A stretch of DNA of 53,427 nt from Pleurocapsaceae cyanobacterium CSU_1_1 (GTDB lineage: Bacteria; Cyanobacteriota; Cyanobacteriia; Cyanobacteriales; Xenococcaceae). The notes under the pieces were generated by a model. That model had not been told where the DNA came from and did not search any database. It saw only the letters and a list, made by a program, of their open reading frames with translations. Positions 5,180-23,196 of this stretch are shown one piece after another. The stretch spans positions 1 to 53,427 of the forward strand of contig JAAUOU010000012.1 in the NCBI GenBank assembly GCA_012034765.1, read 5' to 3'. The number at the start of each line of letters is the position of its first letter. Position 1 is the first letter of the stretch. A program made the position numbers and the translations under genes.

Positions 5180-5911
5180 TTAAACTATTCCGCCATTAGC
5201 CTGAATAGTCTGAGAAGTAACCCAGCTACCTTCTTGGCTGACCAAAAAAGCAACAACATTAGCAACATCACTGGGTTCTCCAAGACGACCCAGAGGAGTG
5301 ATCGATTTCAACTCTTCCAATGCAGAAGCTGGTAACACTAAACCATCTGTGGCTGTTACCCCAGGAGCAACATTATTAACTGTAATTCCTCTTGTGCCTA
5401 ATTCTTTTGATAGAGCAACGGCAAAAAGTTCTAATGCACCTTTGCTACCTACGTATAAACCTCCCGTAGGCATAGGATTTTTAGTTCCGCTAGTGCTAAT
5501 ATTGACAATTCTACCGCCATCGGTGATATGTTTAGCCGCCTGCTGCATTACGAAAAAAGACCCTTTAGTATTGAGGTTAAATACAGAATCAAATTCTGCT
5601 TCAGTAATTTCTACATGAGGCTTAAAAAAACCTTGACCTGCATTGTTGACGACAATATCGATATGCTTAAAGTGTTCTTTGGTGGTGCTAAAGAGTGATT
5701 CAATCTCAGTCACTTTTGACATATCCCCTTGAATGGCGATCGCACTACCACCTTCTTGATTGATAGTTTTTACCACTTCCTCGGCTTTGTCAGCTTGATT
5801 AGCGTAGTTAACCACAACTGCTGCTTTCGCTCGTCCTAGTAATTCGGCGATCGCTTTACCAATACCTCTGGAAGCTCCTGTAATAATTGCGACTTTTCCT
5901 TGAAGATTCAT
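5180..5911 (-). CDS. short-chain dehydrogenase/reductase, FabG-like
   Basis: A 243-residue classical SDR. It has the Rossmann cofactor motif TGASRGIG near residues 12-19, NNAG near 90, the catalytic Ser in NISTSGT, and the YxxxK pair in YVGSK. It ends IQANGG, the normal SDR C-terminus. It would reduce a ketone or oxidise an alcohol with NAD(P)H, and the substrate cannot be read from the sequence. It is the last gene of the minus-strand run, 26 bases after the prephenate dehydrogenase, so it is probably cotranscribed and serves as a tailoring enzyme of the cluster product. A housekeeping FabG is less likely given the location. The family call is certain and the role is inferred. Confidence 0.9.
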   Translation of the reverse strand: MNLQGKVAIITGASRGIGKAIAELLGRAKAAVVVNYANQADKAEEVVKTINQEGGSAIAIQGDMSKVTEIESLFSTTKEHFKHIDIVVNNAGQGFFKPHVEITEAEFDSVFNLNTKGSFFVMQQAAKHITDGGRIVNISTSGTKNPMPTGGLYVGSKGALELFAVALSKELGTRGITVNNVAPGVTATDGLVLPASALEELKSITPLGRLGEPSDVANVVAFLVSQEGSWVTSQTIQANGGIV

Positions 5912-5937
5912 AATTTGAACTATTTGGCAGAATTTAC

Positions 5938-6807
5938 CTAATTTATTGCTGATTTCTGTAATCGTTGAAAAAAATGATCGGTTGCTCTAAATTCATTGAT
6001 TAAAGCATCTCGATCGCCTTGCTGGATTAATTTAGCTAACCCAGAGTAAGTATTTCCTAATCTAGCGATCGCCTCACGGCTTTCAGGAGTAGCTAACATG
6101 ATATCGACTACTAATGGAGCAGATTGGGCGAATAACCTTTGCACCATCTCAATCTGTTGACGATATTTAGGACTAGAAAAATCTAGACTCCGTTCGATGT
6201 CAATATTTTCCTGGGAGAGAAACGCACCCAAACTAAAAGTGGCGAAGTGGCGGATAGCCTGAACCGTGGTCATCATGAGATCGTGTTCTTTGGGTGTAGC
6301 ATAAATTAGTTCTGCTCCATCACTTTGCATTAGTTCTAAAAACCATTGAAAAACTATATCCTGGCGACCTGGGCAAATTACTACCTTTTGAGCTAGAAAT
6401 GATTTAATATCTGGACCAAACATAGGATGTAAACCCATTACAGGGCCCTGATGGTATTCGAGCATAGCTTTAACTATGGGAGCTTTGATACTGGTAATAT
6501 CAGCTAAGGCTGTATGAGGTGATAAATACTGAGAGAGTTGGGCAATAGTCTTGACCATACATTCTATGGGAACACAGAGCAAAACCAAATCTATATCTGC
6601 CAGTAGTTTTTCAGCTTGTCCCCAATCGCTATATTCAAGAATATTAACTTGATGTCCTGCTTGAGATAAACAAGAGCTAAAAAAGCGTCCCATCCTACCC
6701 CCTCCGCCAACTATGGTAACTTGTTGCTGCTGCAAATCAGTTGACGTAGATAGATTAGTACTTTGAGAAGTTTGGTTAATCAGCGCTACTTTGGCTTTAA
6801 GGTTCAT
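5938..6807 (-). CDS. tyrA: prephenate dehydrogenase, E. coli TyrA-like
   Basis: A 289-residue protein that would convert prephenate and NAD+ to 4-hydroxyphenylpyruvate. The nucleotide-binding motif is GGGGRMG (34-40). The active-site segment HPMFGPD (127-133) contains the His equivalent to the catalytic His of E. coli TyrA. HFATF (187-191) and the SSPKYRxxxxMVQRLFAQ region follow. The sequence is closest in character to the dehydrogenase half of the enteric T-protein, without its fused chorismate mutase. It does not resemble the shorter arogenate dehydrogenase that serves cyanobacterial tyrosine synthesis. It is therefore probably a dedicated copy. A good Shine-Dalgarno (AAGGAAG) precedes the ATG. 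The separate AroH gene at 15019 supplies the preceding step. Comparable extra tyrA genes occur in scytonemin clusters. Confidence 0.9.
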   Translation of the reverse strand: MNLKAKVALINQTSQSTNLSTSTDLQQQQVTIVGGGGRMGRFFSSCLSQAGHQVNILEYSDWGQAEKLLADIDLVLLCVPIECMVKTIAQLSQYLSPHTALADITSIKAPIVKAMLEYHQGPVMGLHPMFGPDIKSFLAQKVVICPGRQDIVFQWFLELMQSDGAELIYATPKEHDLMMTTVQAIRHFATFSLGAFLSQENIDIERSLDFSSPKYRQQIEMVQRLFAQSAPLVVDIMLATPESREAIARLGNTYSGLAKLIQQGDRDALINEFRATDHFFQRLQKSAIN

Positions 6808-7000: not shown

Positions 7001-8029
7001 CTAGCTCTTGCTTAAACTTAGTTGGTGATCTGATTGGCTGGAAAGATTGGGAGAGACAACTGTGGGAAAATTGTCAAAATTCCGTTTAACCCAGTCTATT
7101 CCTACTTCATTGTTGAGCCTAATTTTGGATGAAGTATAGGGATATATTTTCAGCAAAATGTCTATATCCTGATCGATCACGACTTTAGCTAGCTCAAGAA
7201 ACCGCTTTTTCCCAAAGTGTTTCATAAATGAGACTTTAGGTTGGGCAAACAACAAAACATATATACGAGTGCGGGTATCTGTTTCTGGGACAAATAAATG
7301 GCACTGAGCAGCCCTGCCGAATGGGTTATCGGTATGGATAATCACTAAGTTAGGAAAATAGTTTTCTAAGTGAGTTGTTAAAGCATCAGGCATCAGAAAT
7401 AAGGTAGGATTACGCAGCTTTTCCTGCAAGCTTTTGGGAGCCATTACATTATGAAAGACAGCCTGGGATTTATATCCTTCGTCAATAAATTGCTCTAGGT
7501 GGACTTCTTTAATTTTCATCGGGTTGTAATGCGCCCCAGACTGATGATTATAGTCATGCATATTAATGAGCATGGTTTGTAAATCAATTTCTGTACTGGT
7601 ATCGGCGGTGTAACCAATGAAATCATAGTTTTCTACTATCTCATTCAGAATTTTGGGTATGGGCATTTGAGGCTCGTATCCTCCATAAGACCAGATAAAG
7701 TCGTTTTGGATAATTAGCTTTAGTGGTTTGAGCTGCGGTAAAGTTTTTTTCTGGCTACCTGGTAACACTGTGCAGCCTTCATGGTCAAATTTCAAAGCGT
7801 GATAGGGACAGACAACATTGCAACTATGGGTTTCAGGATTTTCTTCACACCATCCCTCCGATAGCATTGCGCCTAAATGGGGACAGGCGTTGGGGAGGGC
7901 GGAAACATTGCCCTGACGGTCTTTCCACAATACATAATCTTGATTGTAGAGAGAAATTTTGTGGGGTTGATTTACTTTTAGCATTGATTTGTGAACCAAC
8001 AACCAAGGAACACCAGTTATAACAGACAT
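7001..8029 (-). CDS. Rieske non-heme iron oxygenase, oxygenase subunit
   Basis: A 342-residue protein with an N-terminal Rieske [2Fe-2S] domain: Cys49-x-His51 and Cys74-x-x-His77. A catalytic domain follows, with the mononuclear-iron motif N156-x-x-D159-x-x-H162-x4-H167 (NMHDYNHQSGAH). This is the arrangement of ring-hydroxylating or demethylating Rieske oxygenases. They hydroxylate, desaturate or dealkylate a substrate using electrons from a separate reductase, and no reductase gene is visible here. A strong Shine-Dalgarno (AAAGGAGA) lies 5-6 bases before the ATG. It sits between the MATE exporter and tyrA in the cluster, so a tailoring role on an aromatic product is the natural guess. The substrate is unknown. 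Confidence 0.88.
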   Translation of the reverse strand: MSVITGVPWLLVHKSMLKVNQPHKISLYNQDYVLWKDRQGNVSALPNACPHLGAMLSEGWCEENPETHSCNVVCPYHALKFDHEGCTVLPGSQKKTLPQLKPLKLIIQNDFIWSYGGYEPQMPIPKILNEIVENYDFIGYTADTSTEIDLQTMLINMHDYNHQSGAHYNPMKIKEVHLEQFIDEGYKSQAVFHNVMAPKSLQEKLRNPTLFLMPDALTTHLENYFPNLVIIHTDNPFGRAAQCHLFVPETDTRTRIYVLLFAQPKVSFMKHFGKKRFLELAKVVIDQDIDILLKIYPYTSSKIRLNNEVGIDWVKRNFDNFPTVVSPNLSSQSDHQLSLSKS

Positions 8030-8115: not shown

Positions 8116-9510
8116 TTAATTTCTAGAAGCCTGAATAGGGGAATTATCTGGAGTAAAATCTTGAACTAGAGACTGACGCTTGAGAGTTTGACGCTGCCAG
8201 ATGATCGCTCCTAAGCCAACGATTAAGTTAGCTAAACAAGCACCAACAAAAATACCGTTAATTCCCCACAGGAGTTTCCCTAAGTGAGCCAGAGGTATAT
8301 AAATTACTAGGGTATGGGCAAGAGTCATCACTACCGAGGGGAATGGTTTACCTAAAGCAATAAAAGTTGAACTGGCAATCAGAACAATCCCCGCAGCAGC
8401 ATAGCTAATTGGCACGATCGCCATATATTTAGCTACAATTGCTACTACTTCTTGATTCTTGTTAAAGATCGATGCAAAACTAGAAGCAGTAAAAGCCAGC
8501 ACCACAGCGATCGCGACTCCCCAAATGACACAGAAACGCAAGCTTAAGTTAAAGGCGCGGTCAACTCGTTGATATTTTTTCGCTCCCCAGTTTTGTCCTA
8601 CTATAGGGGCAATAGCTGCTGATAAGGAAAAAAAGACAATCATCACTAAGGATTCCAAGCGCGAAGCAATTCCAAAGGCAGCGATCGCCTCTGAACCATA
8701 GATAGCTACCATGCTAGTGATTAAGCCCAAAGAAATCGGTGAGATGGCATTCTTAGCAGCAGCAGGAATACCCAGGTGTAAGATCTCCCCCCAAGATTTC
8801 CAGACTTTACTTAATTTAGATGAGGTAAAGCTAATTAATCGCTCATGATGGAGAAACATCAAACCACCAAGTAAAATCGTCCCTTGAGAAATAACAGTAG
8901 CGATCGCTGCTCCTGCTAGTTCTAACCGAGGGAAACCCAGTAAGCCAAAAATAAATAGAGGGTCAAGCAAAATATTAATTAAGGTAGCAGTGAGGACAAT
9001 CAGACTGAGAACTTTCATCTCCCCCAAAGCTCGAATTGTATTCATAGCGATCGCTGAAACTACCAGAAAAATTGCTCCCAAATACCAAATCCCCATATAT
9101 TCTTTGACTAGGGAAAGAACCTCGGATTTAGCCCCTAAAGCAGTAAATAAAGGGGTAATGATCATCAGGGCGACAACAGTAACAACAATGCCGATGATTA
9201 AGGATAAAGTTAAACCATCGGTGTTAAGCTGTCTGACTTTCTGGCGATTTCCTTCCCCAATCGCGATCGCTATTACTGCCCCTGCACCATCTCCTAAGCC
9301 CATAGTTAAACTAACCAGAGTGGCAATTACAGGAAAGGTCAAGCTCATGGCAGCCAATTCCTCAGTTCCTAGTTGAGCGACAAAATAGGTGTCTGTGAGA
9401 TTAAAAGCCACCACAGTCAAGATATTAAACAGCATTGGTATACTTAATTTGACCAGGTGAGAGCCAACACTGCCATCCGTCAATCGGCAATTCATCATTT
9501 CGGGTTGCAT
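8116..9510 (-). CDS. MATE family multidrug/metabolite exporter
   Basis: A 464-residue integral membrane protein with about twelve hydrophobic segments in two pseudo-symmetric halves. Each half begins with the MATE pattern: LSIPMLFNILTVVAFNLTDTYFV in the first, and LGIPAAAKNAISPISLGLITSMV near residue 250 in the second. The sequences QLGTEELAAMS and YGSEAIAAFGIA are the matching loops. MATE proteins export organic cations or natural products by Na+ or H+ antiport. It lies within the biosynthetic run, between the P450 and Rieske genes, so export of the cluster product or protection against it is likely. The start could be ATG 9510 or the ATG five codons later, as neither has a clear ribosome-binding site. 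Confidence 0.92.
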   Translation of the reverse strand: MQPEMMNCRLTDGSVGSHLVKLSIPMLFNILTVVAFNLTDTYFVAQLGTEELAAMSLTFPVIATLVSLTMGLGDGAGAVIAIAIGEGNRQKVRQLNTDGLTLSLIIGIVVTVVALMIITPLFTALGAKSEVLSLVKEYMGIWYLGAIFLVVSAIAMNTIRALGEMKVLSLIVLTATLINILLDPLFIFGLLGFPRLELAGAAIATVISQGTILLGGLMFLHHERLISFTSSKLSKVWKSWGEILHLGIPAAAKNAISPISLGLITSMVAIYGSEAIAAFGIASRLESLVMIVFFSLSAAIAPIVGQNWGAKKYQRVDRAFNLSLRFCVIWGVAIAVVLAFTASSFASIFNKNQEVVAIVAKYMAIVPISYAAAGIVLIASSTFIALGKPFPSVVMTLAHTLVIYIPLAHLGKLLWGINGIFVGACLANLIVGLGAIIWQRQTLKRQSLVQDFTPDNSPIQASRN

Positions 9511-9537
9511 ATTTTTTTATATCAAATTTAAATTGAA

Positions 9538-11023: not shown

Positions 11024-11036
11024 AGTTGATCTCCTT

Positions 11037-11795
11037 TTATAAGTGGGTAGTAGCAGCAGTAGGGGCAGTTCGCGAACTGCCCCTACTAAATTCTCGAAAT
11101 TCTTCGGGGGTTAAAGCGTTATTAATAATTGTTCCGTCTTGAAACCAGATAATTCGCTGACATAGACGGGCTGTCTCAAAATCGTGAGTTACCATAATGA
11201 TGGTCATACCGCGATCGTTGAGACTCTGAAAAATATTCATAATCTCTTGACTAGTACGGGAGTCTAAAGCCCCTGTTGGTTCGTCTGCTAAGAGTAAAAT
11301 CGGTTGATTGACAATGGCACGTGCGATCGCCACTCGTTGTTGTTGACCACCAGAGAGCTGATTGGGGCGATATGACATTCGCTGTTCCAGTCCCACTTGA
11401 TTTAAGGCGTAGGCAGCCCGTTCATGGCGTTCTTTGTGGGGTAAGCCTGCATAGGTCATGGGTAGCATGACATTTTCCATGGCAGTTAGTTGAGGCAGAA
11501 GGTGGAACTGTTGAAAGACAAAGCCCAGTTTCCGATTGCGGATATATGCTAATTCGTCGTCATGCAGCGAGTCTACTGCTTGCCGTTGCAGATAGTAGCG
11601 TCCAGTACTAGGTCGATCCAGACAGCCTAAAATCTGCATCGCTGTAGATTTACCCGAACCAGAAGGACCCATAATTGCACAATATTCTCCCTGGTTTACT
11701 AGTAAATTAATCTTGTGCAGGGCTAAAACCTCTAAATCCCCTTGTCCATAGTGTTTGCTGATCTGTTCTAAGCGAATGATTTCTAATGCAGACAT
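11037..11795 (-). CDS. ABC transporter ATPase, MacB/LolD type
   Basis: A 252-residue nucleotide-binding protein. It has Walker A GPSGSGKST (residues 43-51), the Q-loop FQQFHLLPQLTAMENV, the signature LSGGQQQR, Walker B LLLADEPTGALDS and the switch His in MVTHD. The family is the one that energises FtsX-type permeases (MacB, LolD, DevA). It starts two bases after the permease stop, so the two are translationally coupled. The final 15 or so residues (RGSSRTAPTAATTHL) are not part of the normal fold. They are encoded by the 30-bp palindrome at 11058-11087, which apparently inserted at the 3' end of the gene. Together with the genes at 11798 and 13052 it would form a tripartite efflux pump. Confidence 0.95.
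   Translation of the reverse strand: MSALEIIRLEQISKHYGQGDLEVLALHKINLLVNQGEYCAIMGPSGSGKSTAMQILGCLDRPSTGRYYLQRQAVDSLHDDELAYIRNRKLGFVFQQFHLLPQLTAMENVMLPMTYAGLPHKERHERAAYALNQVGLEQRMSYRPNQLSGGQQQRVAIARAIVNQPILLLADEPTGALDSRTSQEIMNIFQSLNDRGMTIIMVTHDFETARLCQRIIWFQDGTIINNALTPEEFREFSRGSSRTAPTAATTHL
11058..11087. repeat. perfect 30-bp palindrome inside the ATPase 3' end
   Basis: The half-site AGTAGGGGCAGTTCG (11058-11072) is followed directly by its exact reverse complement (11073-11087). It shares the GTAGGGGC ends with the elements at 9558 and 18676. It is translated as part of the ATPase tail. It could also form an RNA hairpin between the ATPase and P450 reading frames. Confidence 0.85.
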
Positions 11796-11797
11796 AT

Positions 11798-13024
11798 CTA
11801 ACTCCTCAAAGCAATAATGGGATCGAGACGCGCAGCATTACGGGCAGGAAGTACCCCAAATCCCAAGCCAATTGCCCCCGATACTCCCACGGCTAAAAGA
11901 ATGGCGACTGGACTGACAATTGCTTCTAGAGGCGTGAGGGCAGCAAAGATCACTGTCCCAGCCACAGCGATCGCAATACCGATACTGCCCCCTGTGAGGG
12001 CTAAAATTACTGCTTCTACCGTAAACTGTACTTGAATATCTTTATGGGTTGCTCCCAAAGCCTTACGCAGACCGATTTCTTGAGTACGTTCGCTCACCGA
12101 AACCAGCATAATATTCATAATGCCGATCCCACCTACCAAGAGAGAAATGCCCGAAGTGGCAGCCATCAGCACCACTAACATTCCCGTAATGCTATCGGCA
12201 GTTTGCAGTAATTCTTGCTGACTACGAACCGTAAAATCATTTTCTCCCTTCACGTTATGACGCAACCGCAATAAATTATTAATTTGAAACTGGGCAGCAC
12301 TCATGTTCTCAGAAGATTTAGCCGAAACGGAAATCGACTGTAAACTGGGGCTAGTATAAGCATTATCTTCTCCTGTTAACTGGCTTGCCATCACACTAAT
12401 GGGGATAAAAATCGCCTCATCCTGATTCATGCCCATTGATGCGCCTTTCTCCGCCATCACTCCAATTACCCGAAAGCTATAGTTGCGAATGCGAATTTTT
12501 GCACCCACAGGATAGCGATCGCCAAATAAAGTCCGAGCGGTTTCGCTACCTAAGACTGCCACCCGTTGATGTTGTTGTAATTCCAACATACTAAAAAATC
12601 TGCCCTTGGCAACTCCAGCATTACGAACGCTAGGATACTCACTGTTAGTTCCCGTAACATCCACTTGCGTATCCTTGTCTGCCCAGGTAACACGCAGGCG
12701 ATCGCTTTTTTCAGGAGCAACCCCAGCTATCGCAGGAACTTCTCTCGCCATTGCTTCTGCATCGTCTAGTACTAAACTTTCAGCAGGAATAGAAGATGCT
12801 AAAGGACCTTCAGGGGCTATACCAGGTAAGACAAAAAGTATATTTGTACCAAGAGATTGAAATTGTTTACCAATAAACTGTTGCGCCCCCTGCCCCACAG
12901 CAATCATGGCGATTACCGAGGCATTGCCAATAATAATACCAAGCATAGTCAGACCGCTACGCAACTTATTCGCGCTGAGGGTGCGGACTGCCATACTGGC
13001 GTTTTCTGCTAAATATACTGCCAT
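11798..13024 (-). CDS. MacB/DevC-type ABC transporter permease
   Basis: A 408-residue permease with one N-terminal membrane helix (about 20-45, beginning near the LRSGLTMLGIIIG motif). A periplasmic MacB_PCD domain of about 200 residues follows, then an FtsX domain with three C-terminal helices (LVVLMAATSGISLLVGGIGIMNIM, the helix after EIGLRKALGA, and the last one ending GFGVLPARNAARLDPI). The ERTQEIGLRKALGAT sequence is the coupling-helix signature of this family. MacB proteins act mechanically with a periplasmic adaptor to extrude substrates across the outer membrane. The adaptor gene at 13052 is directly upstream in transcription order and the ATPase directly downstream. An outer-membrane TolC-like partner is not in the window. 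Confidence 0.94.
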   Translation of the reverse strand: MAVYLAENASMAVRTLSANKLRSGLTMLGIIIGNASVIAMIAVGQGAQQFIGKQFQSLGTNILFVLPGIAPEGPLASSIPAESLVLDDAEAMAREVPAIAGVAPEKSDRLRVTWADKDTQVDVTGTNSEYPSVRNAGVAKGRFFSMLELQQHQRVAVLGSETARTLFGDRYPVGAKIRIRNYSFRVIGVMAEKGASMGMNQDEAIFIPISVMASQLTGEDNAYTSPSLQSISVSAKSSENMSAAQFQINNLLRLRHNVKGENDFTVRSQQELLQTADSITGMLVVLMAATSGISLLVGGIGIMNIMLVSVSERTQEIGLRKALGATHKDIQVQFTVEAVILALTGGSIGIAIAVAGTVIFAALTPLEAIVSPVAILLAVGVSGAIGLGFGVLPARNAARLDPIIALRS

Positions 13025-13051: not shown

Positions 13052-14863
13052 CTAAAATGGTTTCGATAAAGTTTCAGGAGCTTTTCCTCCAGGAAAGTCA
13101 ATAAATACTCGTTGTTCTGGCTTTAAGCCATCCACGATTTGAGTTTTACCGTCCTGAGTTACCCCGACGGTAACAGGCTGGAATTTCGCTTCTCCTTTAG
13201 CATCAGGAACTAGTACCCCCATTTGCTCCTGGCGGTTAGTAACTGCGACTGTTGGTACTAGCAAAGCTTTAGGGATAGGCTCGCCGATAAAAATAGCGTC
13301 AACATTCATCCCAGAGCGTAAAAGGGATTCTGCTTGATTCAATCGCACCCTGACTCGGAATGAGGTAACATCATCCTCTGATACTGCTTCTGGCTCTATG
13401 GTGCGTACTGTTCCCTTAAAAGTGCGATCGCTATAGGCATCGGCAATAATATCTACTGGTTGCCCAGTTTTGATACGACCAATATTTGCTTCGGGGACAT
13501 TAACTAACACCTCCAGTCCTGAAGCCAACTCGACAATTGAACTAGGAGTTGCGGAGGCTGAATCGGATGCTGCTGCCATCGTCGGGGTAATAATCGCACC
13601 AATATTGGCGTGTTTTTGAGTCACAATACCGTCAAAGGGAGCTTTAATAGTAGTTTTATTAAGTTGCGATTGAATTTCTTGTAGTTCCGCACGAGCAATA
13701 GTAACTCTGGCTGCTGACTGTTGAATATCTTCGGGGCGAAAACCCTGAGTAAGTTCTTGTAACTGCTGTTGCGCTTCCTGCAAGTTAGCACGATTAGTTT
13801 GATCTGCTTGAATAATTTCGTCTAGATCGAGTTGGGCGATCGCTCCCGACTCTGCTAGAAACTGATTGCGTTCGAGTTTTTTGGCACTCAAATTTACACT
13901 CGCTTGGGCTGATGCTAGCTGTGCTTGGGCGCGGTTAATTTCTTCACTGCGATTACCATTCAGCATTTTGGTATATTCAGCTTCAGCTTCAGCTAATCGT
14001 CCCTGTGCCTGAGCTAGTTGCGCCTGTTGTTCGCTGAAATCGAGACGTGCTAAAGTATCTCCTGCTTTTACTTGATCGCCACGATCAACATAAAGTTCTG
14101 CTAGTCTGCCTGCTACTTCAGAGCTAACATTCACTGTGTCGATTGGCTCAATCGTTCCGCTAGCTTCAACTTTCACCGTTAATGGTTGAGTTTCGACTGG
14201 GGCTGTTAGAGCCTTGATATTAGGTTGACTCTCAGCACGTTTTTGAGACATACTTTTCGACCCGACAGCGATCGCACTTACTAGGACTAAAATCCCAAGT
14301 GATGTCCAGATCCACTGCCAATAAAACTGACGGCGAGGAGGAATAGACTTGGGCTTTTCCGATGCCGGTTTGGTCAGATCAAGATTAGAAGCATCCTGAA
14401 TACTCTTAGTTAACTGCATTTTGGGCAGTAATTTAGGAGCAAAATGGGAATATCCTTTGGATACCGAATGAATTGCCATTACCAAATCACCAGCAGGAAC
14501 ATTTTTGAGAATGTAACCATCTGCACCTGCTGCGATCGCCTGTTGTACATATTCTTGATTTTTATGACTGCTAAGAACTAAAATTCGACAGTCAGGAAAT
14601 CGCTGGGAAATAATCTTTGTCGCTTGAATACCATTCATGGTCGGCATTTCAATATCCAGCAACACTACATCTGGCTGCAAAGACTCTATCTGCGCGATCG
14701 CTATTTCCCCATTGTCAGCAGTTCCCACAACCTGCAAATCGACTTGTGGGGATAAAATTTCTTGTAATTTCAGCTGTATCGATTTTTGATCGTCAACTAA
14801 CAGGATTTTTAGCGTACGAGCAACAGAGTTGTTTTGGTTGGATTTTATTGGTTGAGTAAGCAT
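13052..14863 (-). CDS. response-regulator receiver domain fused to HlyD/MacA-type membrane fusion protein
   Basis: 603 residues from the preferred start at ATG 14863. Residues 17-135 form a complete receiver domain: acidic pair Asp24/Asp25, phospho-acceptor Asp70 in VLLDIEMPTMNG, a Ser in LVLSS, and Lys120. After a linker, one membrane helix (about 184-201) leads to a periplasmic adaptor. This has an upstream lipoyl half, a long coiled-coil hairpin (EQQAQLAQAQGRLAEAEAEY and the return helix), a second lipoyl half (TTIKAPFDGIVTQ) and beta-barrel domains. The receiver would face the cytoplasm and the adaptor the periplasm. A longer reading frame adds 16 residues (ATYYLLLTTYYLP) encoded by the heptamer tract, which I reject as a start. 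It is operonic with the permease 28 bases on. There is no DNA-binding domain, so phosphorylation may gate or assemble the pump. Confidence 0.9.
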   Translation of the reverse strand: MLTQPIKSNQNNSVARTLKILLVDDQKSIQLKLQEILSPQVDLQVVGTADNGEIAIAQIESLQPDVVLLDIEMPTMNGIQATKIISQRFPDCRILVLSSHKNQEYVQQAIAAGADGYILKNVPAGDLVMAIHSVSKGYSHFAPKLLPKMQLTKSIQDASNLDLTKPASEKPKSIPPRRQFYWQWIWTSLGILVLVSAIAVGSKSMSQKRAESQPNIKALTAPVETQPLTVKVEASGTIEPIDTVNVSSEVAGRLAELYVDRGDQVKAGDTLARLDFSEQQAQLAQAQGRLAEAEAEYTKMLNGNRSEEINRAQAQLASAQASVNLSAKKLERNQFLAESGAIAQLDLDEIIQADQTNRANLQEAQQQLQELTQGFRPEDIQQSAARVTIARAELQEIQSQLNKTTIKAPFDGIVTQKHANIGAIITPTMAAASDSASATPSSIVELASGLEVLVNVPEANIGRIKTGQPVDIIADAYSDRTFKGTVRTIEPEAVSEDDVTSFRVRVRLNQAESLLRSGMNVDAIFIGEPIPKALLVPTVAVTNRQEQMGVLVPDAKGEAKFQPVTVGVTQDGKTQIVDGLKPEQRVFIDFPGGKAPETLSKPF

Positions 14864-14866
14864 TGG

Positions 14867-14922
14867 CAAGTAGTAAGTAGTAAGTAGTAAGTAGTAAGTA
14901 GCAAGTAGCAAGTAGCAAGTAG
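14867..14922. repeat. heptanucleotide tandem repeat, 8 copies of (C/T)AAGTAG
   Basis: Exactly eight units of seven bases lie directly upstream of the receiver/adaptor start codon. The first copy and the last three are CAAGTAG and the four in between are TAAGTAG. The length is not stable by nature, and reading through it creates a spurious N-terminal extension of the downstream gene. Confidence 0.9.
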
Positions 14923-15018: not shown

Positions 15019-15453
15019 TCAACCTGAAATTGCCAAATCTGGACGTAAGCGCACTGCCTGGTTTAGATAGACTGGGCGTAAAGCTTTCTGTGGTAAGGGA
15101 GTGTTGAGATGAATAAGAATTCTAATACAACGTTCCAAACTATTAGCTACATCAAGGTGTTGCAGATCCAACAGAGGAATATATTCCCAGCCAGGACGCT
15201 GACGAGCGATCGCAGCAGGAAACAAGGCATTTAAGTCTGAGGTGACGGAAAAAAAGACGCTCGCAATATCATCAGGAGCAATTTGATTTTCCGTGATCAA
15301 AATATCTAATAATTCATTAACAGCTTGCGTAATTGCTGCGACTGAGTTACGGCTAACTGTCGTTGCCCCTCGCAGTCCTCGAACTCGCCAGGTATCTGAA
15401 GGAGGAGAGATCGTCTGCTGTTGTTCGTTAACGGGATATTTTAATTGGTTCAT
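15019..15453 (-). CDS. aroH: chorismate mutase, AroH class
   Basis: 144 residues; it would convert chorismate to prephenate. Compared with the Bacillus subtilis trimeric enzyme from memory, the core motifs are all present: RGLRGATTV with the Arg7 equivalent, LFPA, IARQ with the Arg63 equivalent, CIRI with Arg90, VYL with Tyr108 and LRPDL with Arg116. The segment YVPVTCMQEMDV reads YIPLLDLQHLDV here, so Glu78 is replaced by His while Cys75 is replaced by Asp. There is a 20-residue N-terminal extension. ATG 15453 is chosen over a TTG four codons upstream. With TyrA (5938) and DAHP synthase (22123) it makes a private route to 4-hydroxyphenylpyruvate inside the cluster. Confidence 0.9.
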   Translation of the reverse strand: MNQLKYPVNEQQQTISPPSDTWRVRGLRGATTVSRNSVAAITQAVNELLDILITENQIAPDDIASVFFSVTSDLNALFPAAIARQRPGWEYIPLLDLQHLDVANSLERCIRILIHLNTPLPQKALRPVYLNQAVRLRPDLAISG

Positions 15454-15500
15454 AATTAATACCAAATTTTGTTGTGATAGTAGGGGACGGGGCGTTTAAA

Positions 15501-15566: not shown

Positions 15567-16709
15567 TCACACACTACTAACTAAAACCTTGTCCTGTCCG
15601 AGAGCAAAGCTAAGGGGAGGTTTGGGGGCAGTACCCAAGGCAACTTTGCCCCAACGCATGATGGCAGCACCACCATTAGAAGAAGAACCCATTGTATAAA
15701 CCAAAACTAAATCATTTTCCTTAATTTTCTCTAGCTGGGCAGCGTGATAAAGATTGGCAAAGGGAAAAGTAGGGCCAATATTGCCATAAACGGGATTAAG
15801 ATTGAGAGTGCGTTCTGGATCGACACCCAAGGTTCTAGTACAAACTCGCGAATACCAAGCAGTGGGGGTATTAAAAACAAAAAAGTCGATGTCTTTTAAG
15901 CTAACTCCAGCCTCAGCAGCAGCCCCTTCACAACAGTTGCGTAAAAATTTGACTGTGGTATCGACAAACATTTTGCCAGTATCTTTACGCGCTCGAATAA
16001 ACATTTGATTAGGAGCTTTCGGCGTAAATTCTTGATAAAAAGCTCCACAAGTTTCGGCAGTATTAATAATTTTCGTTCCCAAAACTCCCTGTTCAGCTTC
16101 TAAAGAAGTGACAAGAAAAGCTCCAATACCGTCACCAGATAAAAACGCCAAAGTGTCATTAGGATCGGTAAAGCGTGAATAGGTAGTAGAGACGATGATT
16201 AGCACATTACGATACTGTCCTGTTTGGACTAAAGAACAGGCGGTTTGTAAAGAAACTAAACCACTAGTACAGGTAGATTCCACATTCCAAGCTGCCCCCT
16301 TTAAGCCCAGTTTACCTGCTAGAAAAGAAGCATCACCAGGTAAGATATGGTCGGGGAATAAAGATGTAACCAACATCAGATCAACATCTTCAGGAGTAAG
16401 TTGAGCAGCAGTTAGAACATCTATAGCCGTTCGATACTCCAGTTCTAGTGCCGAATCTTCTGGGGCGACTACTCGCCGTTCCACAGTACCTCGAAAAGGG
16501 TCAGATATATAGGGCATCATTTCCTCTGTCCAGATATCTGGTTTAGAATCATCCTCATTAGAAGCTGCCACAGAAAAAGCTCGTGCTAAAGTTTTTTGTT
16601 CGGCTTGAGCAATCATTTCTGGATTATGCTGGCGATAATAATCATTGGTACGAATCGTATCGGGAAAAGTAACTGCGATCGCTTTTATTCCTACAGGTTT
16701 GAAATTCAT
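15567..16709 (-). CDS. KAS III-like (FabH-type) condensing enzyme or acyltransferase
   Basis: A 380-residue thiolase-fold protein. The nucleophile is Cys147 in ESTCTSGL. The C-terminal half has GDGIGAFLV, YGNIGPTF with Asn310 (the third member of the FabH triad), and MGSSSNGGAAIMRW at the end. The catalytic His of FabH (in VPHQAN) aligns with Asn280 in FVFNTPTAW, so the usual Cys-His-Asn triad appears to be Cys-Asn-Asn. KAS III relatives lacking His are known that transfer acyl groups rather than perform decarboxylative condensation. It follows the ThDP enzyme gene and probably acts on cinnamoyl/coumaroyl-CoA or the ThDP product. It is not the housekeeping FabH, which would keep the triad. 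Confidence 0.88.
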   Translation of the reverse strand: MNFKPVGIKAIAVTFPDTIRTNDYYRQHNPEMIAQAEQKTLARAFSVAASNEDDSKPDIWTEEMMPYISDPFRGTVERRVVAPEDSALELEYRTAIDVLTAAQLTPEDVDLMLVTSLFPDHILPGDASFLAGKLGLKGAAWNVESTCTSGLVSLQTACSLVQTGQYRNVLIIVSTTYSRFTDPNDTLAFLSGDGIGAFLVTSLEAEQGVLGTKIINTAETCGAFYQEFTPKAPNQMFIRARKDTGKMFVDTTVKFLRNCCEGAAAEAGVSLKDIDFFVFNTPTAWYSRVCTRTLGVDPERTLNLNPVYGNIGPTFPFANLYHAAQLEKIKENDLVLVYTMGSSSNGGAAIMRWGKVALGTAPKPPLSFALGQDKVLVSSV

Positions 16710-16740
16710 AATTAATAATTTAGTGATGGGTTTTCTTTTA

Positions 16741-16764: not shown

Positions 16765-16813
16765 TTTGACTTATTACTAATTACTTATTACTTAAAAAAG
16801 CTTGCTACTTGGA

Positions 16814-16832
16814 GGGCGCAAGCCTTGCGCCC
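16814..16832. repeat. palindromic repeat GGGCGCAAG-C-CTTGCGCCC
   Basis: A 9-bp perfect inverted repeat with a one-base centre. It touches the stop codon of the ThDP gene, whose TAG lies at 16833-16835 in the CCCCTAC end of the element. A near-identical copy lies at the other end of the same gene (18679-18697). Confidence 0.85.
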
Positions 16833-18617
16833 CTACTTGCCTTTCGCTCCTTGTTCCAACAAGCTCTGCACACGACTATTAATTGGGGCAGCTTGATTGG
16901 GATCGATGACTACATCTAGAACAAAGGGAACGGGAGAATTGAGAGCTTGGGCGATCGCTGCTGCCACATCTTCTTCTTTGTCAATCCGAAGGGAATCTGC
17001 TCCCATTGACTGGGCGAGGAGGGCAAAGTCAGTATGAGGAATAGTCGTATCTACTCCTTTAAATCCTTGGAGTGCCATGCCTTGAGCGCACATATTGTAA
17101 CGTCCGTCATTAAGAACAATCCAAACCGCAGGTATTCCAAATCGTACGGCTGTACTGACTTCACTGTTCATCAGCATTGCTCCATCCCCAACAACAGCAA
17201 CTGCTTTTTTGCTTAGAGCAGCACCAACAACCCCCGTCACGGCATGACCCATTGCTCCGACTCCAGTGCTAATACGGTAACGGTTAGGTTGATTAAAACG
17301 CAGCAGCTTAGTTGCCCAGGCAAAGGAATTACCAGCTTCTGCCATTACAATGGCATCAGTTTCTTCAACAATTTGCTGTTGAATCTGATTCATCAATAGT
17401 TCTGGTCGCACTAAGCCTATCTCCCTGCGAGTAACAATAGGAGTTTCGGGATTGGGTAGTAATTTTGGTTGCCATTGACAATCTGGTATTTGGTTTAGTA
17501 GCGTTTGCAGATATACTTTGACCTCAGAAGAAATTGCAAATGTTGGTACTGCTGGATAAGCTACCCCTGGTACTTCTGGATTGATATCAACATGAATAAA
17601 GCCTTTTAAAGGCACCATGGTTTTATCCCAGAAAGAAGTTGGTTCTCCTAATCGCGTCCCCAGGACAAGTATGCGCTGAGGTGGTTGTTGACGCATATAT
17701 TTCTGCACTGAATCATCGCTACTAAAGCCTGTGACACCGACAAATTGGGGATGATTTTCGGGAAAAATACCTTTACCACGAGGAGAACACATTACTGCTG
17801 CACCTGTTTTTTCTGCCAAGGCACGAATTTCAGGGGCTGCGCCCCTTGCGCCAAAACCGACCCAGATGGCAAAGGGGGCTACTGATAATAACTCGGCAGA
17901 TTTAGCGATCGCCTCAATATTGGCAGTAGGCACAGATTGAGTAAACATTTTCCGTGGCACCGATGTTTTTAAGGAAGCCATTTGAATTGGGGTGGGAATG
18001 CTAATATGGGCTACAAATCCTCCAGGTTGAGTTAAACCACCAGCCAGTCGGCGATAAATTTCGGGAATTTCTGTACCAGTTTCAATGGTAGTAGCGTAGT
18101 TAAATAGCGTCCCCGAAGTAAACAAACCAGCAACGGGCATAGTGTAAGCACTGGTTTCCTGACAAGCCCAGCGACCACGATTACCTGCGGGAGTAGTGGC
18201 TGATAAAAGAATTACTTTAGCTCCTTCCCCCCGTGCAGCGAATAAACCAGTTAAAGCATTGGTAATTCCAGGACCAGTGGTAGTGAAGACCACCACTGGG
18301 CGCTCGCTAGCTAAATAAGCTTCGGTAGCTGCAAAGGCTGCCCCTGATTCGTGACGAAAGTGCATTACCTCGATATCGCTTTGATACAGGGTTGCCCACA
18401 AAGGGCCAATTCCTCCCCCAGAAACCCCAAAGGCATAACGAACTCCTAAGTCTTGCAAAATTTTGACGATCGCTTCTCCTACGGTTGGTTGAGTTGGACG
18501 CGATTCTGTAGGTTTGCTTTGCGGTGTAAAAATCGAGGACTCAAAGGCAGTATCTACCGCTAGCCGATTCGGTGATTGAATATTATTGGCAGTTTGGCTA
18601 ATAGATTTAGCAGTCAT
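16833..18617 (-). CDS. ThDP-dependent acyloin/acetolactate synthase-like enzyme, ScyA-like
   Basis: 594 residues from ATG 18617. It has the three-domain layout of the acetolactate synthase family. The catalytic Glu lies in FRHESGAAFAATEAYLA, the central domain contains WVGFGARGA and VLGTRLGE, and the ThDP/Mg2+ motif is GDGAMLMN..NDGRYN. These enzymes decarboxylate a 2-keto acid and join the acyl anion to a second carbonyl. The text resembles ScyA of scytonemin biosynthesis, which couples two aromatic 2-keto acids (comparison from memory). With tyrA and aroH in the cluster, 4-hydroxyphenylpyruvate is a likely substrate. Housekeeping IlvB is unlikely. A longer frame starts at a TTG (18686) inside a palindromic repeat. 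I prefer the ATG, which has AAGGAG 15 bases upstream. Confidence 0.88.
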   Translation of the reverse strand: MTAKSISQTANNIQSPNRLAVDTAFESSIFTPQSKPTESRPTQPTVGEAIVKILQDLGVRYAFGVSGGGIGPLWATLYQSDIEVMHFRHESGAAFAATEAYLASERPVVVFTTTGPGITNALTGLFAARGEGAKVILLSATTPAGNRGRWACQETSAYTMPVAGLFTSGTLFNYATTIETGTEIPEIYRRLAGGLTQPGGFVAHISIPTPIQMASLKTSVPRKMFTQSVPTANIEAIAKSAELLSVAPFAIWVGFGARGAAPEIRALAEKTGAAVMCSPRGKGIFPENHPQFVGVTGFSSDDSVQKYMRQQPPQRILVLGTRLGEPTSFWDKTMVPLKGFIHVDINPEVPGVAYPAVPTFAISSEVKVYLQTLLNQIPDCQWQPKLLPNPETPIVTRREIGLVRPELLMNQIQQQIVEETDAIVMAEAGNSFAWATKLLRFNQPNRYRISTGVGAMGHAVTGVVGAALSKKAVAVVGDGAMLMNSEVSTAVRFGIPAVWIVLNDGRYNMCAQGMALQGFKGVDTTIPHTDFALLAQSMGADSLRIDKEEDVAAAIAQALNSPVPFVLDVVIDPNQAAPINSRVQSLLEQGAKGK

Positions 18618-18678
18618 GATGAGTAATTTGTTCTCCTTAGATGGACTGATGTGCAATTCGGATCGGAAATAGACGTAG

Positions 18679-18697
18679 GGGCGCAAGGCTTGCGCCC
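18679..18697. repeat. palindromic repeat GGGCGCAAG-G-CTTGCGCCC
   Basis: A second copy of the element at 16814, differing only at the central base, preceded by GTAG. It lies in the gap between the acyl-CoA ligase and the ThDP gene. It supplies a false TTG start for the latter. A possible terminator-like or mobile palindrome. Confidence 0.85.
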
Positions 18698-18768
18698 TGA
18701 GAGGGGGTAAGAGGGAGCAGAGAGAGGAAAATATTTACTTTACCCATCTATTGCCAGTTGACAGACTA

Positions 18769-20313
18769 CTAACCCTTAACGCACTCTAAGTTTTGGACGT
18801 AATCCAATTTGGAAGAACTTGCTTCTTGGCGTAAAACTCGCTTAAGTACTTTCCCAGTCGGATTTTTGGGTAAATCGGCGACAAAACTGATTTCACGGGG
18901 AATTTTGTAATTTGCTAGCCTCTGAGAACAAAATTCCTTAATTTCCAACGCTGTCATCGACTGTTCGCTATTTTTGGTGACTATATTAGCCTTAACGATT
19001 TCGCCTTTTTCGGGATCGGGGACTCCATAAATGGCTACTTCAGCAACGGCAGGATGTTGATAGATTACCTGTTCAACTTCGTTGGGATAGACTTTAAATC
19101 CCGACATATTAATCATGTCTTTTAGGCGATCGACAATATAGAAAAAGCCTTGTTCATCGATCCGACCGAGATCGCCAGTGTGAAACCAGCCATGTTTAAT
19201 TGCTTGGGCAGTTGCTTGGGGACGATTCCAGTAGCCCAGCATGACGTTCGGCCCACGAATGGCGATTTCTCCCAATTTTCCTGGCGGTAACTGCTGACCA
19301 TAACTATCCACAATCTTCATTTCGACATTTTCAACGGGCATACCCACTGAACCGAATTTGTATTGTAAGTCGTGGTTATAAGAGGCACAGGGAGAAGTTT
19401 CTGTTAGCCCATAGCCTTCGTGAATCGTCAAAGCATATTCACTCTGCCAATGTTGCACAACTGCTACGGGCATAGATGCTGCTGCCGAAAAATAGTAACG
19501 AATGCTGGAGAAAACTCTAGGAGAGATATCTGCTTTAAGCAGTTTGATAAAGACTGTCGGTACACCGAACAACATGGTTATGTTATGAACAGTGATGTTT
19601 TTTAGTACCTGTTCAAGCTCAAAGCGACGTTGCAAAATGATCGCCGCACAAGCATTAAGTCCTGCATTGAGAATCGCATTTTGACCAAAGCAATGAAACA
19701 ACGGCAGGTAAAGCAATAACTTATCATCCGCATTCATCCGACAACAACGATTTTGTGCATACATATTAGAAATTACGTTGCCGTGGGAGAGGGTTGCACC
19801 TTTGGAAAAACCTGTTGTGCCTGATGTATAAACAATACTAGCTGGGGCATGACGCTCAACGGCAATTGCCTTCGCTCGTGAGTCGGCATTTGCCATCAGT
19901 TGCCCTAAACTTAGTCCAAGATCGCTTTCTCCTTCAGCAATTAAGATCTGCTCTAGCTCTGGTAAATCTGCTGTCGATACATATTGGCATTGTGCCTCGG
20001 TGGTAATGACAATTTTGGCAGCGCAATCATTGAGAACATGGCTAACTTCCTCACTCTTGAACATGACGTTAACCGAAACGGCGATCGCTCCCAGTTTGAG
20101 AATCCCCAAGTAGGCGAAAATAAATTCGGGAATGTTGGGTAGAAATAAAGCCACGCGATCGCCTTGTTGAATCCCTAACCCTCGTAAACCATTGGCAACT
20201 TTACTTGCTAGGCGATCAAGCTGTTGATAGGTAAAAGATCTCTCCTCGAAAATTAGAGCTACCTTATGGGGAAATAGTAAATGTCCCCGTTCGACATGAT
20301 CTGCAATATTCAT
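18769..20313 (-). CDS. acyl-CoA ligase (AMP-forming), 4-coumarate/fatty-acid type
   Basis: A 514-residue ANL-superfamily enzyme. It has the P-loop YTSGTTGFSKGA (A3), GYGLTETSP (A5), GYWNRP, GWFHTGDLG (A7), the hinge DRLKDMINMSGFKVYPNEVE (A8) and the catalytic Lys in NPTGKVLKR (A10). It activates a carboxylic acid to its adenylate and then to a CoA thioester. It lies 15 bases after the ammonia-lyase gene, so cinnamate or 4-coumarate is the most likely substrate, giving the CoA ester for the KAS III-like enzyme. A fatty-acid substrate cannot be excluded from motifs alone. The window's other acyl-CoA ligase at 28345 is the long housekeeping type. Confidence 0.9.
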   Translation of the reverse strand: MNIADHVERGHLLFPHKVALIFEERSFTYQQLDRLASKVANGLRGLGIQQGDRVALFLPNIPEFIFAYLGILKLGAIAVSVNVMFKSEEVSHVLNDCAAKIVITTEAQCQYVSTADLPELEQILIAEGESDLGLSLGQLMANADSRAKAIAVERHAPASIVYTSGTTGFSKGATLSHGNVISNMYAQNRCCRMNADDKLLLYLPLFHCFGQNAILNAGLNACAAIILQRRFELEQVLKNITVHNITMLFGVPTVFIKLLKADISPRVFSSIRYYFSAAASMPVAVVQHWQSEYALTIHEGYGLTETSPCASYNHDLQYKFGSVGMPVENVEMKIVDSYGQQLPPGKLGEIAIRGPNVMLGYWNRPQATAQAIKHGWFHTGDLGRIDEQGFFYIVDRLKDMINMSGFKVYPNEVEQVIYQHPAVAEVAIYGVPDPEKGEIVKANIVTKNSEQSMTALEIKEFCSQRLANYKIPREISFVADLPKNPTGKVLKRVLRQEASSSKLDYVQNLECVKG

Positions 20314-20328
20314 GATCTAAAAATCTAT

Positions 20329-22053
20329 TCATTCATTACTTGAAGCTACATTTGAGTCAGATAACTGCTGATTAATTGCCTGTACAATCACTCCTTCAGC
20401 TTTAATATCAGCGACAATCTTAGCGATATGTTCATCTAGCGGTTGTTCGCGGTCATTCCAGATATAGGGTTTGTCTATTGAGGGGGGTTCTCCAATTACT
20501 TCCCGCACTGCTAGATATAACTTACGAGTTTGAGGCGACAGACAAACTGAGGCATCGTAATGTTGGGCGATGAGATAGGTGCGCAGATCCACTGCCTGTA
20601 TCCCAAACATTAAAGATATTGCTAAATACTGTCGAAATATGTCCAGAGAATCTCGAGCGAGGTTAGCAGAAGCAAATCCTTGACTATTGATGTTTTGATT
20701 AAATTGTTCCGCATGGGTGGGAAAGCGATCAGCGATGGAATTGCCATAAAATGTGAGCAAGGGCATAATCGAATTACCCACGATCTGCAAACCTTTTAAA
20801 CCCATGTTGACTGGATTTCCAGTATTGCCAGTTAAAGAGGGAGATAAACCATTATTAAATTCTGGTGCTACTAATAGGGCGATCTGGGTATCGAGGTGTT
20901 TAGCCAGCAGCCCAAGATAGTAACGCAAACTGTCCATCCCAGTACCGATATACTGCCCCAGAAAATTACCGCCATGATAACTAGCTTGATTCTCGACATC
21001 GATTAAGGGATTATCAGTAACCGAGTTCATTTCAACTTCTACTTGCCCACTGATCTGTTCGATCCCATCGACTATTGGCCCTAAATACTGTGCTAAACAA
21101 CGCAGGGAATAACGATCTTGAATCGGCTGTAAACCTCGATAGTCATGAGAGCCATCTAACTCATTACGAATTAACTCAGAACCTTCTAATAACGAAAGCA
21201 TCTCGTCTGCTGCCCAAATTTGACCAAAATGGGGTTTATGCTCATGAATAAAGGGATGAAAAGACTGATTAGTCCCATATAGTCCCTGAATCGCTAAGGC
21301 ATGAACCCCCATACTTAAAGACAACAGTACTTTGGTATCATATATGCAATTAGCGGCGATCGCTGTCATCACCGAAGTACCATTCATCATCGCCAAACCT
21401 TCTTTGGGCAAAAGTTCCATCGCTTCTAAACCCAGTCTAGCTAGGGCAGTGGGAGCATCTACTGTTTCACCATCAAAGTCAACAGTGTAACGACTATCTA
21501 AACCGAGTAATGCCCCAGTAATATAAGACAGGGGAACTAAATCACCACTAGCACCAATCGAACCAAACTCATATACATGGGGGGTTACGCCAGCATTGAG
21601 AAAAGTAACAATCCGTTTGAGTATTTCGAGTCGAATACCCGACGCACCGTATATATGCGAATTAACTCGTAGCAGCATAGCAGCACGCACATCAGCTAGC
21701 GGTAATTTTTTACCTGTTCCTGCTTTGTGGTACCAAATTAAATTATTTTGTAACTCGGCTGCTTGTTCAGGGGCGATCGCAATGTGCGCCATGCCACCAA
21801 AACCACTAGTAACACCATATATCGGCTTACCAGATTTAACTGCATCGGCAATATAATTGCAGGATGCCTCAACTCTTTGCAAGATATCCTCTTGAATCGT
21901 CAAACTAACCTGTTTGCCATGACGTGCGACATTAATAACGTCAGTTAAGGTAAGAGGTGCATCACCAATAACAACAATTTCATTACTGCTGGGCTGTTTC
22001 TGGTTAAATTTTTGGGTTACCGTTACCGTCTCTTGAAAAGATACTACATTCAT
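20329..22053 (-). CDS. aromatic amino acid ammonia-lyase (PAL/TAL, MIO family)
   Basis: 574 residues, alignable over its whole length with Anabaena variabilis PAL as I remember it. The MIO prosthetic group forms from Ala168-Ser169-Gly170 in GSIGASGDLVPLSY. The catalytic Tyr is Tyr79 in PIYGVTSGFGG. The substrate-contacting tail AEQFNQNINSQG is the same. It would deaminate Phe or Tyr to cinnamate or 4-coumarate. The selectivity pair, Phe-Leu in cyanobacterial PAL, is Tyr108-His109 here (LIWYHKAGTG), which leaves Tyr, Phe or aminomutase activity open. It is directly followed by the acyl-CoA ligase and preceded by DAHP synthase. This is not the histidine-utilisation HutH, which has Ser-His at that site. 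Confidence 0.93.
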   Translation of the reverse strand: MNVVSFQETVTVTQKFNQKQPSSNEIVVIGDAPLTLTDVINVARHGKQVSLTIQEDILQRVEASCNYIADAVKSGKPIYGVTSGFGGMAHIAIAPEQAAELQNNLIWYHKAGTGKKLPLADVRAAMLLRVNSHIYGASGIRLEILKRIVTFLNAGVTPHVYEFGSIGASGDLVPLSYITGALLGLDSRYTVDFDGETVDAPTALARLGLEAMELLPKEGLAMMNGTSVMTAIAANCIYDTKVLLSLSMGVHALAIQGLYGTNQSFHPFIHEHKPHFGQIWAADEMLSLLEGSELIRNELDGSHDYRGLQPIQDRYSLRCLAQYLGPIVDGIEQISGQVEVEMNSVTDNPLIDVENQASYHGGNFLGQYIGTGMDSLRYYLGLLAKHLDTQIALLVAPEFNNGLSPSLTGNTGNPVNMGLKGLQIVGNSIMPLLTFYGNSIADRFPTHAEQFNQNINSQGFASANLARDSLDIFRQYLAISLMFGIQAVDLRTYLIAQHYDASVCLSPQTRKLYLAVREVIGEPPSIDKPYIWNDREQPLDEHIAKIVADIKAEGVIVQAINQQLSDSNVASSNE

Positions 22054-22122
22054 CTATTTATATTCCTAAGTGTGAAGAGGGAACTAATTAAGGGGAAACT
22101 CTTGAGCAGCTTATAGCCTTTC

Positions 22123-23196
22123 TTAAACGGCAGTTAAAACCGCAGATTGAGGTGTCAATTTGGTGCGACAATCGCTAGCCTGACTGACTTGTATCATTTC
22201 TGCCATCAAATCTTGATACTGCTCTGGGTTCAAGGATTGTGGTCCATCAGAAAGAGCTTGAGCGGGGTTGGGATGTACTTCAATCATCAGGGAATCTGCC
22301 CCTGCTGCGATCGCTGCCTTTGCCATTGCAGGTACGTATTCTGAGCGTCCTGTACCGTGACTAGGATCGATCGCAATTGGTAAGTGAGTCAGAGTTCTTA
22401 AGACTGGTATTACTGATAAATCAAGGGTATTGCGAGTAAACTGACTGTCAAAAGAACGAATACCTCGTTCACAAAGAATAATATTAGAATTACCAGCAGC
22501 AATGATGTATTCAGCAGCTAAGAGCCATTCTTGGATAGTTGCACACATACCTCGCTTCAGGAAAATAGGCTTGGACTGAGAACCTGCTTTTTTGAGCAAA
22601 GAGTAGTTGTGCATATTTCTCGCTCCAATTTGGATAATGTCGGCAACTTGAGCGACTTTTTCTAAATCAGCTACATTCATCACTTCCGTAATGATCCCCA
22701 AACCAGTTTGCTCACGGGCAGTGGCTAAAAAGTCTAAAGCTGACTCGCCATGTCCTTGAAATGCATAAGGAGACGTTCGGGGTTTATAAGCACCTCCTCG
22801 CAAAAATTTTGCTCCTACTTGTTTAAGTTTTTGGGCTGTGGCGATAATCATTGATTCGCTTTCTACTGAACAAGGGCCTGCTATATGTACCACAGGGAAG
22901 TCTTGTCCAAACTGCACTACCCCATTTGGTGTTGGAACGGCTACTACACTGGGTTCACCATTGCGAAATTCACGGCTAACCCGTTTAAACGCTCTTTCAA
23001 TCGGTACAACTTGTTCGATAAAGGAACTTAATGCTTGCACTCTTGATGGTTCAAGCTCTGTTGTGTCACCAATCAAACCAATTACTACTTGATGCTTGCC
23101 AATACTTTTCTCGGCAATTATGTTCCAACCATTAATTTCTTCACTGATGCGCTGAATTTCTATGGCTGGAGTTTTTGGCTTCATTACAATAATCAT
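22123..23196 (-). CDS. aroF: 3-deoxy-7-phosphoheptulonate synthase (DAHP synthase), AroA-I-beta type
   Basis: A 357-residue enzyme joining phosphoenolpyruvate and erythrose 4-phosphate, the entry step of the shikimate pathway. An N-terminal ferredoxin-like regulatory domain (residues 1-70) is followed by the barrel with HIAGPCSVES (metal-ligand Cys), FLRGGAYKPRTSPYAFQG, IGARNM, LKRGM, ILCERG and IDPSHGTG (metal-ligand His). The regulatory domain of this class usually mediates feedback by Tyr or Phe. It is the first gene of the fourteen-gene minus-strand run, so the promoter should lie just above 23196. Placement next to the ammonia-lyase points to precursor supply for the cluster rather than general metabolism. 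Confidence 0.93.
   Translation of the reverse strand: MIIVMKPKTPAIEIQRISEEINGWNIIAEKSIGKHQVVIGLIGDTTELEPSRVQALSSFIEQVVPIERAFKRVSREFRNGEPSVVAVPTPNGVVQFGQDFPVVHIAGPCSVESESMIIATAQKLKQVGAKFLRGGAYKPRTSPYAFQGHGESALDFLATAREQTGLGIITEVMNVADLEKVAQVADIIQIGARNMHNYSLLKKAGSQSKPIFLKRGMCATIQEWLLAAEYIIAAGNSNIILCERGIRSFDSQFTRNTLDLSVIPVLRTLTHLPIAIDPSHGTGRSEYVPAMAKAAIAAGADSLMIEVHPNPAQALSDGPQSLNPEQYQDLMAEMIQVSQASDCRTKLTPQSAVLTAV

Follow-up and report, generated by a model that had tools for sequence, protein, structure and literature searches.

The window, that is the entire stretch of 53,427 nucleotides from Pleurocapsaceae cyanobacterium CSU_1_1 analyzed here, carries a run of 14 ORFs at 5180..23196. All are on the minus strand, read from 23196 down to 5180, and are separated by gaps of 2 to 193 bases. 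In the order of transcription, they encode a DAHP synthase, an ammonia-lyase, a CoA ligase, a ThDP enzyme, a KAS III-like enzyme, an AroH-type chorismate mutase (CM), an HlyD adaptor, a MacB-type permease, an ABC ATPase, a cytochrome P450, a MATE pump, a Rieske oxygenase, a TyrA-type dehydrogenase, and a short-chain dehydrogenase (SDR). Families were confirmed for the 14 proteins: Pfam supported 10 and NCBIfam 10, the remaining four being assigned by a further NCBIfam search. An earlier note on this DNA had described 14 minus-strand genes of these families with short gaps, and the ORF coordinates, Pfam, and NCBIfam bear it out. A check for catalytic motifs was positive in seven proteins: by pattern in the lyase, the ligase, the ThDP enzyme, the P450, the Rieske oxygenase, and the SDR, and by alignment in the KAS III-like enzyme, in which one catalytic residue is changed. 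Neither a halogenase nor a methyltransferase gene is among the 14.

The 3' border of the cluster is a convergent gene for a multidomain histidine kinase (937-4977). This protein of 1346 aa, with several PAS domains and a GAF domain, is encoded tail to tail with the cluster. Upstream, a 1.65-kb stretch devoid of ORFs of 80 aa separates 23196 from a phytase-like gene. Promoter and terminator scans of the locus gave numbers not above those of shuffled sequence (39 vs. a shuffled mean of 42.5 and 13 vs. 18.2).

Two loci serve as references for the individual genes: L045 from Nostoc sp. 'Peltigera membranacea cyanobiont' 210A, the only named anchor strain among the compared loci, and L033 from the Xenococcaceae MAG MO_188.B32. 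The DAHP synthase, of the Bacillus subtilis type (A, 22123..23196, minus strand like all that follow), scores 610 bits with PRK13396 of NCBIfam and is 66% identical to its L045 counterpart (tblastn, as for all L045 values) and 68% to that of L033. The MIO-type aromatic ammonia-lyase (B, 20329..22053; 75% to L045) is CybB-like, carries the ASG motif, and is probably tyrosine-using. Its nearest solved structures are the Nostoc punctiforme phenylalanine lyase, the best PDB match, and 2nyn; both have FL at the selectivity position, replaced by YH in the window. Across 24 loci between L033 and L085, the lyase has YH in 19 and FL in 5, L047 being one of the latter. Given that tyrosine is the reported substrate of CybB, YH may indicate tyrosine use, and YH versus FL may distinguish tyrosine from phenylalanine use, a reading drawn from this substrate rather than from the residues of CybB itself. 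The CybC-like acyl-CoA ligase (C, 18769..20313; PF00501 and its motifs; 67% to L045) is followed by the putative CybE-like, ThDP-dependent acyloin-forming enzyme (E, 16833..18686; 65% to L045) and the predicted CybF-like, KAS III-like furanolide synthase (F, 15567..16709; 67% to L045).

The AroH-type CM (15019..15465; 58% to L045) matches PF07736 and, over cut-off, TIGR01796. It is followed by the genes of an ABC exporter. Its HlyD membrane-fusion adaptor (13052..14911; HlyD families, TIGR01730 over cut-off) has a response-regulator receiver domain (PF00072, residues 36-147) fused at its N terminus. The MacB-type permease (11798..13024) and the ATPase (11037..11795) were both identified with NCBIfam. 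Downstream lie the P450 (9644..11023; PF00067, FxxGxRxC motif) and the MATE efflux pump (8116..9510; PF01554), then the Rieske non-haem oxygenase (7001..8029; PF00355, motifs CxH..CxxH and DxxHxxxxH). The run ends with the TyrA-type prephenate dehydrogenase (5938..6807; PRK11199 at 292.3 bits, above the cut-off of 273; 61% to L045) and the SDR (5180..5911; PF13561 and PF00106, motifs TGxxxGIG and YxxxK). The P450, the Rieske oxygenase, and the SDR are candidate tailoring enzymes, and the DAHP synthase, the CM, and TyrA would ensure precursor supply.

Furanolides, to which the algal poison cyanobacterin belongs, are small aromatic lactones. They are described as including a strong photosynthesis inhibitor, cyanobacterin, as well as compounds with activity against cancer cells and Gram-positive bacteria (PMC12395478). 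Their clusters, known for cyanobacterin, nostoclide, and maculalactone, are reported to be marked by the CybB-C-E-F signature (PMC13288894), which is borne in the window by the block 15567-23196 from the DAHP synthase to the KAS III-like gene. The four signature genes, together with a DAHP synthase and a CM gene, make up the set described for the mac cluster (PMC13288894). The 14-gene run is very probably a furanolide (cyanobacterin-type) biosynthetic cluster. Its core matches known furanolide clusters and the pathway logic is not new; the unusual part is the set of tailoring genes.

Gene order in relatives was examined starting from F. A search of 386 genomes of the phylum listed, besides the window copy, 24 places at 45-70% identity, one of which is a paralogue in the same genome; the next among the matches listed, at ~31% or less, are at the level of ordinary KAS III enzymes. 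A 19-row F alignment, used to scan the genome collection, found 172 relatives, of which the best 80 were kept and searched by tblastn with the 14 window proteins, matches being counted by identity with no coverage rule (at least 50% for B, C, and E, at least 45% for F). All four core genes were present in 22 of these best 80 of 172 relatives, L045 among them, and in each of the 22 they follow the order B-C-E-F on one strand. Since this order returns in all the relatives holding the four genes, the 14-gene run is more than a chance assembly. The core orthologues are not scattered in relatives; such scattering is what the earlier note would have counted against its proposal. The view of one pathway without PKS or NRPS is supported. 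Among the 22 core loci, A lies upstream in 14 (two of the matches being partial), the CM gene is found in 7, TyrA in 11 (one a fragment), and the MacB and ABC genes in 3. None contains a P450, Rieske, or MATE match of at least 40% or an SDR match of at least 45% to the window proteins; L058, one of the 22, encodes a Rieske protein of 28% identity where its flank ends, and other P450s, of 26-29%, occur in several core loci. The flank after F covers the full 10 kb in 17 loci and less in 5. As the SDR gene of the window ends only 10.4 kb after F, little can be read from the absence of this outermost gene. Neither Tolypothrix PCC 9009 nor Nodularia NIES-3585 is named in any record of the best 80 of the 172 relatives. 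The distribution of F is patchy: at E 1e-60 or better, it is found in 6 of 27 genomes of the family, other F clades counted, and among the 13 genomes of the genus only in that of the window.

Several of these clusters can be compared with the window gene by gene. On the basis of homology with the cyanobacterin producer, putative clusters for nostoclide-like compounds were reported for strains 210A and 232 (PMC5987646). From its strain and gene content, L045 is presumably the published nostoclide-type (ncl) cluster. A, B, C, E, F, CM, and TyrA are common to it and the window, in the same order and 58-75% identical. It differs in its own P450, encoded between B and C, as well as in a multicopper oxidase and two small proteins, and it lacks the window-type Rieske, MATE, SDR, and ABC exporter genes within the stretch compared. 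The mac cluster of Nodularia sp. NIES-3585, as far as its description goes, likewise combines a DAHP synthase, a chorismate mutase, and the BCEF core, but is set apart by a tyrosinase, a flavin reductase, a phycocyanobilin:ferredoxin oxidoreductase, and two hypothetical proteins (PMC13288894). The cyb cluster of Tolypothrix sp. PCC 9009, deposited as BK059219 according to PMC13288894, is described with the BCEF core and tyrosine-supply genes (PMC8777810, PMC13288894). The cyb genes include that of the flavin halogenase CybI (PMC8777810, PMC13288894), whereas the window has no match to the halogenase of L033.

In L033, the sister of the window in the F tree, one finds counterparts of A, B, C, E, F (78%), CM, part of TyrA, and the exporter genes HlyD, MacB, and ABC (57, 72, and 74%, respectively). 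The match between the two adaptors spans residues 198-616 only, the receiver part being absent in L033. Unlike the window, L033 has a flavin halogenase gene between F and CM, and tblastn found in it no match to the window P450, Rieske, MATE, or SDR, even at E 1. The TyrA-like ORF of L033 (13896-14741) aligns to the window TyrA from residue 80 only, part of the nucleotide-binding region being missing. In a two-sequence search, its start showed a weak likeness to that of the window P450 (26 aa, 31%, E 0.002) and is perhaps the scar of a deletion. L158 (genome G396), from the family of the window, has A-B-C-E-F, then a broken MATE gene, then CM and TyrA; it differs by HlyD and AcrB-type genes after TyrA instead of the ABC exporter. 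Its decayed MATE gene (10582-11227) persists in two pieces (64 and 46%), with no covering ORF of 120 aa. The statement in the earlier note that no described cluster had this gene set has to be corrected: by literature and synteny, the core corresponds to the cyanobacterin, nostoclide, and maculalactone clusters. The match to a characterized cluster that would speak against novelty is thus found for the core, but not for the P450-MATE-Rieske-SDR half, which is absent from the compared clusters.

The published route joins two keto acids and then fuses on coumaroyl-CoA, by the CybE and CybF steps (PMC13288894, PMC12395478), from coumarate, a branched keto acid, and 4-hydroxyphenylpyruvate as starting units (PMC12395478). 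It agrees with the joining of a keto acid with a cinnamoyl or coumaroyl unit that the earlier note had proposed. In Escherichia coli, macBCEF alone are reported to yield the same products as the whole mac cluster (PMC13288894). By analogy with this work on macBCEF and on CybC, E, and F, the core chemistry of the window enzymes is most likely the following. The DAHP synthase, AroH, and TyrA would raise the supply of tyrosine and 4-hydroxyphenylpyruvate. B would deaminate an aromatic amino acid, probably tyrosine to 4-coumarate, which C would convert to coumaroyl-CoA. E would couple two alpha-keto acids, one of them probably 4-hydroxyphenylpyruvate, into an acyloin acid. F would, in the manner described for CybF, acylate this acid with coumaroyl-CoA, close the gamma-butyrolactone in a Morita-Baylis-Hillman-like step, and finish with a 1,4-hydride shift. 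The three candidate tailoring enzymes (P450, Rieske oxygenase, and SDR) might then oxidize or reduce the furanolide core, and the ABC exporter, the MATE pump, or both might carry the product out. The sequence itself shows the gene families, their order, the clade of F, and the intact motifs; the exact substrates, the tailoring steps, the export, and the contribution of all 14 genes to one product are inferred.

Elsewhere in the genome of the window, there is a stronger match to the DAHP synthase family (C27) and two more (C129 and C99), all over the family cut-off, as well as a separate AroH paralogue (56%, C169) and a weak TyrA match (C90). The cluster therefore carries extra or distinct copies for this precursor supply.

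The periphery of the window departs from the published clusters by a P450 that is not of the nostoclide type, the Rieske oxygenase, the SDR, the MATE pump, and the ABC exporter. Of 23 loci compared, 8, including L045, carry a relative of the L045 P450 of at least 56% identity; the window P450 is only 27% identical to that of L045. Three of the 23, including L033, have the L033 halogenase, which is missing from the window. Relatives of the window Rieske protein were found in 25 of the 386 genomes, its own counted, and none of 13 neighborhoods of such relatives contains furanolide core genes. In one of these, in a genome of the same genus, a P450 (42%) adjoins the Rieske gene. Within the collection of papers searched, none joined furanolides with a Rieske enzyme.

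These observations bear on a more restricted reading, in which the furanolide pathway comprises the upstream part only, from A to CM and perhaps the ABC exporter, and the P450-MATE-Rieske-TyrA-SDR segment is partly an unrelated neighboring operon or a later insertion. The downstream half may indeed serve another role, as the window-type Rieske, P450, MATE, and SDR genes are missing from the 22 core loci at our thresholds. The Rieske neighborhoods devoid of furanolide genes and the gaps of 86 to 193 bases between the P450, MATE, Rieske, and TyrA genes point the same way. However, TyrA, toward the far end of the stretch, is a cluster gene in 11 of the 22 loci. MATE looks like an old cluster gene, because its broken homologue sits between F and CM in L158. 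Furthermore, all the genes are on the same strand, and the P450 gene starts 13 bases after the ABC gene. We regard this restricted reading as rather unlikely.

Two other readings concern the core itself. The best model for the ThDP enzyme in NCBIfam is 'ScyA-related' (957.7 bits, below its cut-off of 1000). It also matches the ScyA model, at 894.1 bits, as would be expected if it coupled two aromatic keto acids like ScyA and the other genes modified a scytonemin-type dimer. This score, however, is below the ScyA cut-off of 1020 and lower than that of the ScyA-related model, which is also preferred over ScyA by the ThDP enzymes of L045, L033, and L158; that of L033 is under both cut-offs, and those of L045 and L158 pass the ScyA-related one. 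No other Scy model is among the best-scoring families of the 14 proteins, and a scytonemin-like route, which is very improbable, would leave no role for the lyase, the ligase, and F. By these scores, the window enzyme qualifies as CybE-like and distinct from ScyA. Equally improbable is a phenylpropanoid polyketide, obtained by extension of coumaroyl-CoA with malonyl units by the KAS III-like enzyme, or an ester of the bagremycin/ferroverdin type: the lyase and the ligase would yield coumaroyl-CoA, and the lyase and the DAHP synthase match the BagA/FevW and BagF/FevY models, but well below cut-offs, and the ThDP enzyme would be left without a role.

The sequence of F also argues against chain extension. 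In Pfam, it has no match to chalcone/stilbene synthases, only to the ACP_syn_III families and, weakly, to ketoacyl synthases and thiolases. Compared with solved KAS III structures, the catalytic residues Cys147 and Asn310 are retained, whereas the FabH His is aligned to Asn280. At position 280 of an alignment of 82 F rows, 77 have Asn, 3 Tyr, and 2 His; Cys147 and Asn310 are each conserved in 81. Asn at this position fits an enzyme that has left FabH chemistry. The same change occurs in relatives that lack B and C and is thus not specific to furanolide clusters. The scytonemin-like, malonyl-extending, and bagremycin/ferroverdin-like routes were rejected on model scores, on the family and active site of F, and on its place in the F tree.

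That maximum-likelihood tree contains 82 F proteins, from the 80 loci, the window, and the paralogue of the same genome. The window F groups with those of furanolide loci: it is sister to that of L033 (100/100), inside a 15-row clade (100/99) that also contains L045. B, C, and E accompany F in 11 of the other 14 rows of this clade; L034, L036, and L041 are without B, or without B and C, in the stretch compared, where their contigs end nearby. Mapped on the whole tree, the presence of B, C, and E is clustered but does not define a single clade (nine changes vs. a shuffled mean of 19.7).

The interest of the furanolide cluster proposed here lies mainly in its tailoring genes. The furanolide core enzymes are already in use as a one-pot synthesis kit. 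The candidate tailoring enzymes that the window would contribute are its Rieske oxygenase, its different P450, and its SDR. It also provides a natural comparison of exporters. We tentatively suggest, at somewhat less than even chances, that it represents a furanolide subfamily in the cyanobacterial family of the window, in which the Rieske oxygenase and the different P450 would give an oxidized core not yet isolated, and which would have its own ABC exporter with a receiver-fused adaptor, export possibly being controlled by a signal.

Other branches of the F tree have different gene contexts. A second KAS III-like enzyme of the same genome and superfamily (49%; L137, G000:C37:1-20000, 3012-4526) has as neighbors the gene of a chorismate-binding enzyme and NRPS genes coding for condensation, adenylation, and carrier domains, and groups with 14 other loci without B, C, and E (100/100). 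In a 36-row clade (92/86), 33 loci have a ThDP enzyme gene beside F and no lyase or ligase of 50% identity in the flanks, as in L067 (8121-12057, E-F-SDR) and L077 (8224-12159, E-F-GDSL lipase). The loci of this clade are perhaps small furanolide-like pathways supplied from elsewhere in the genome.
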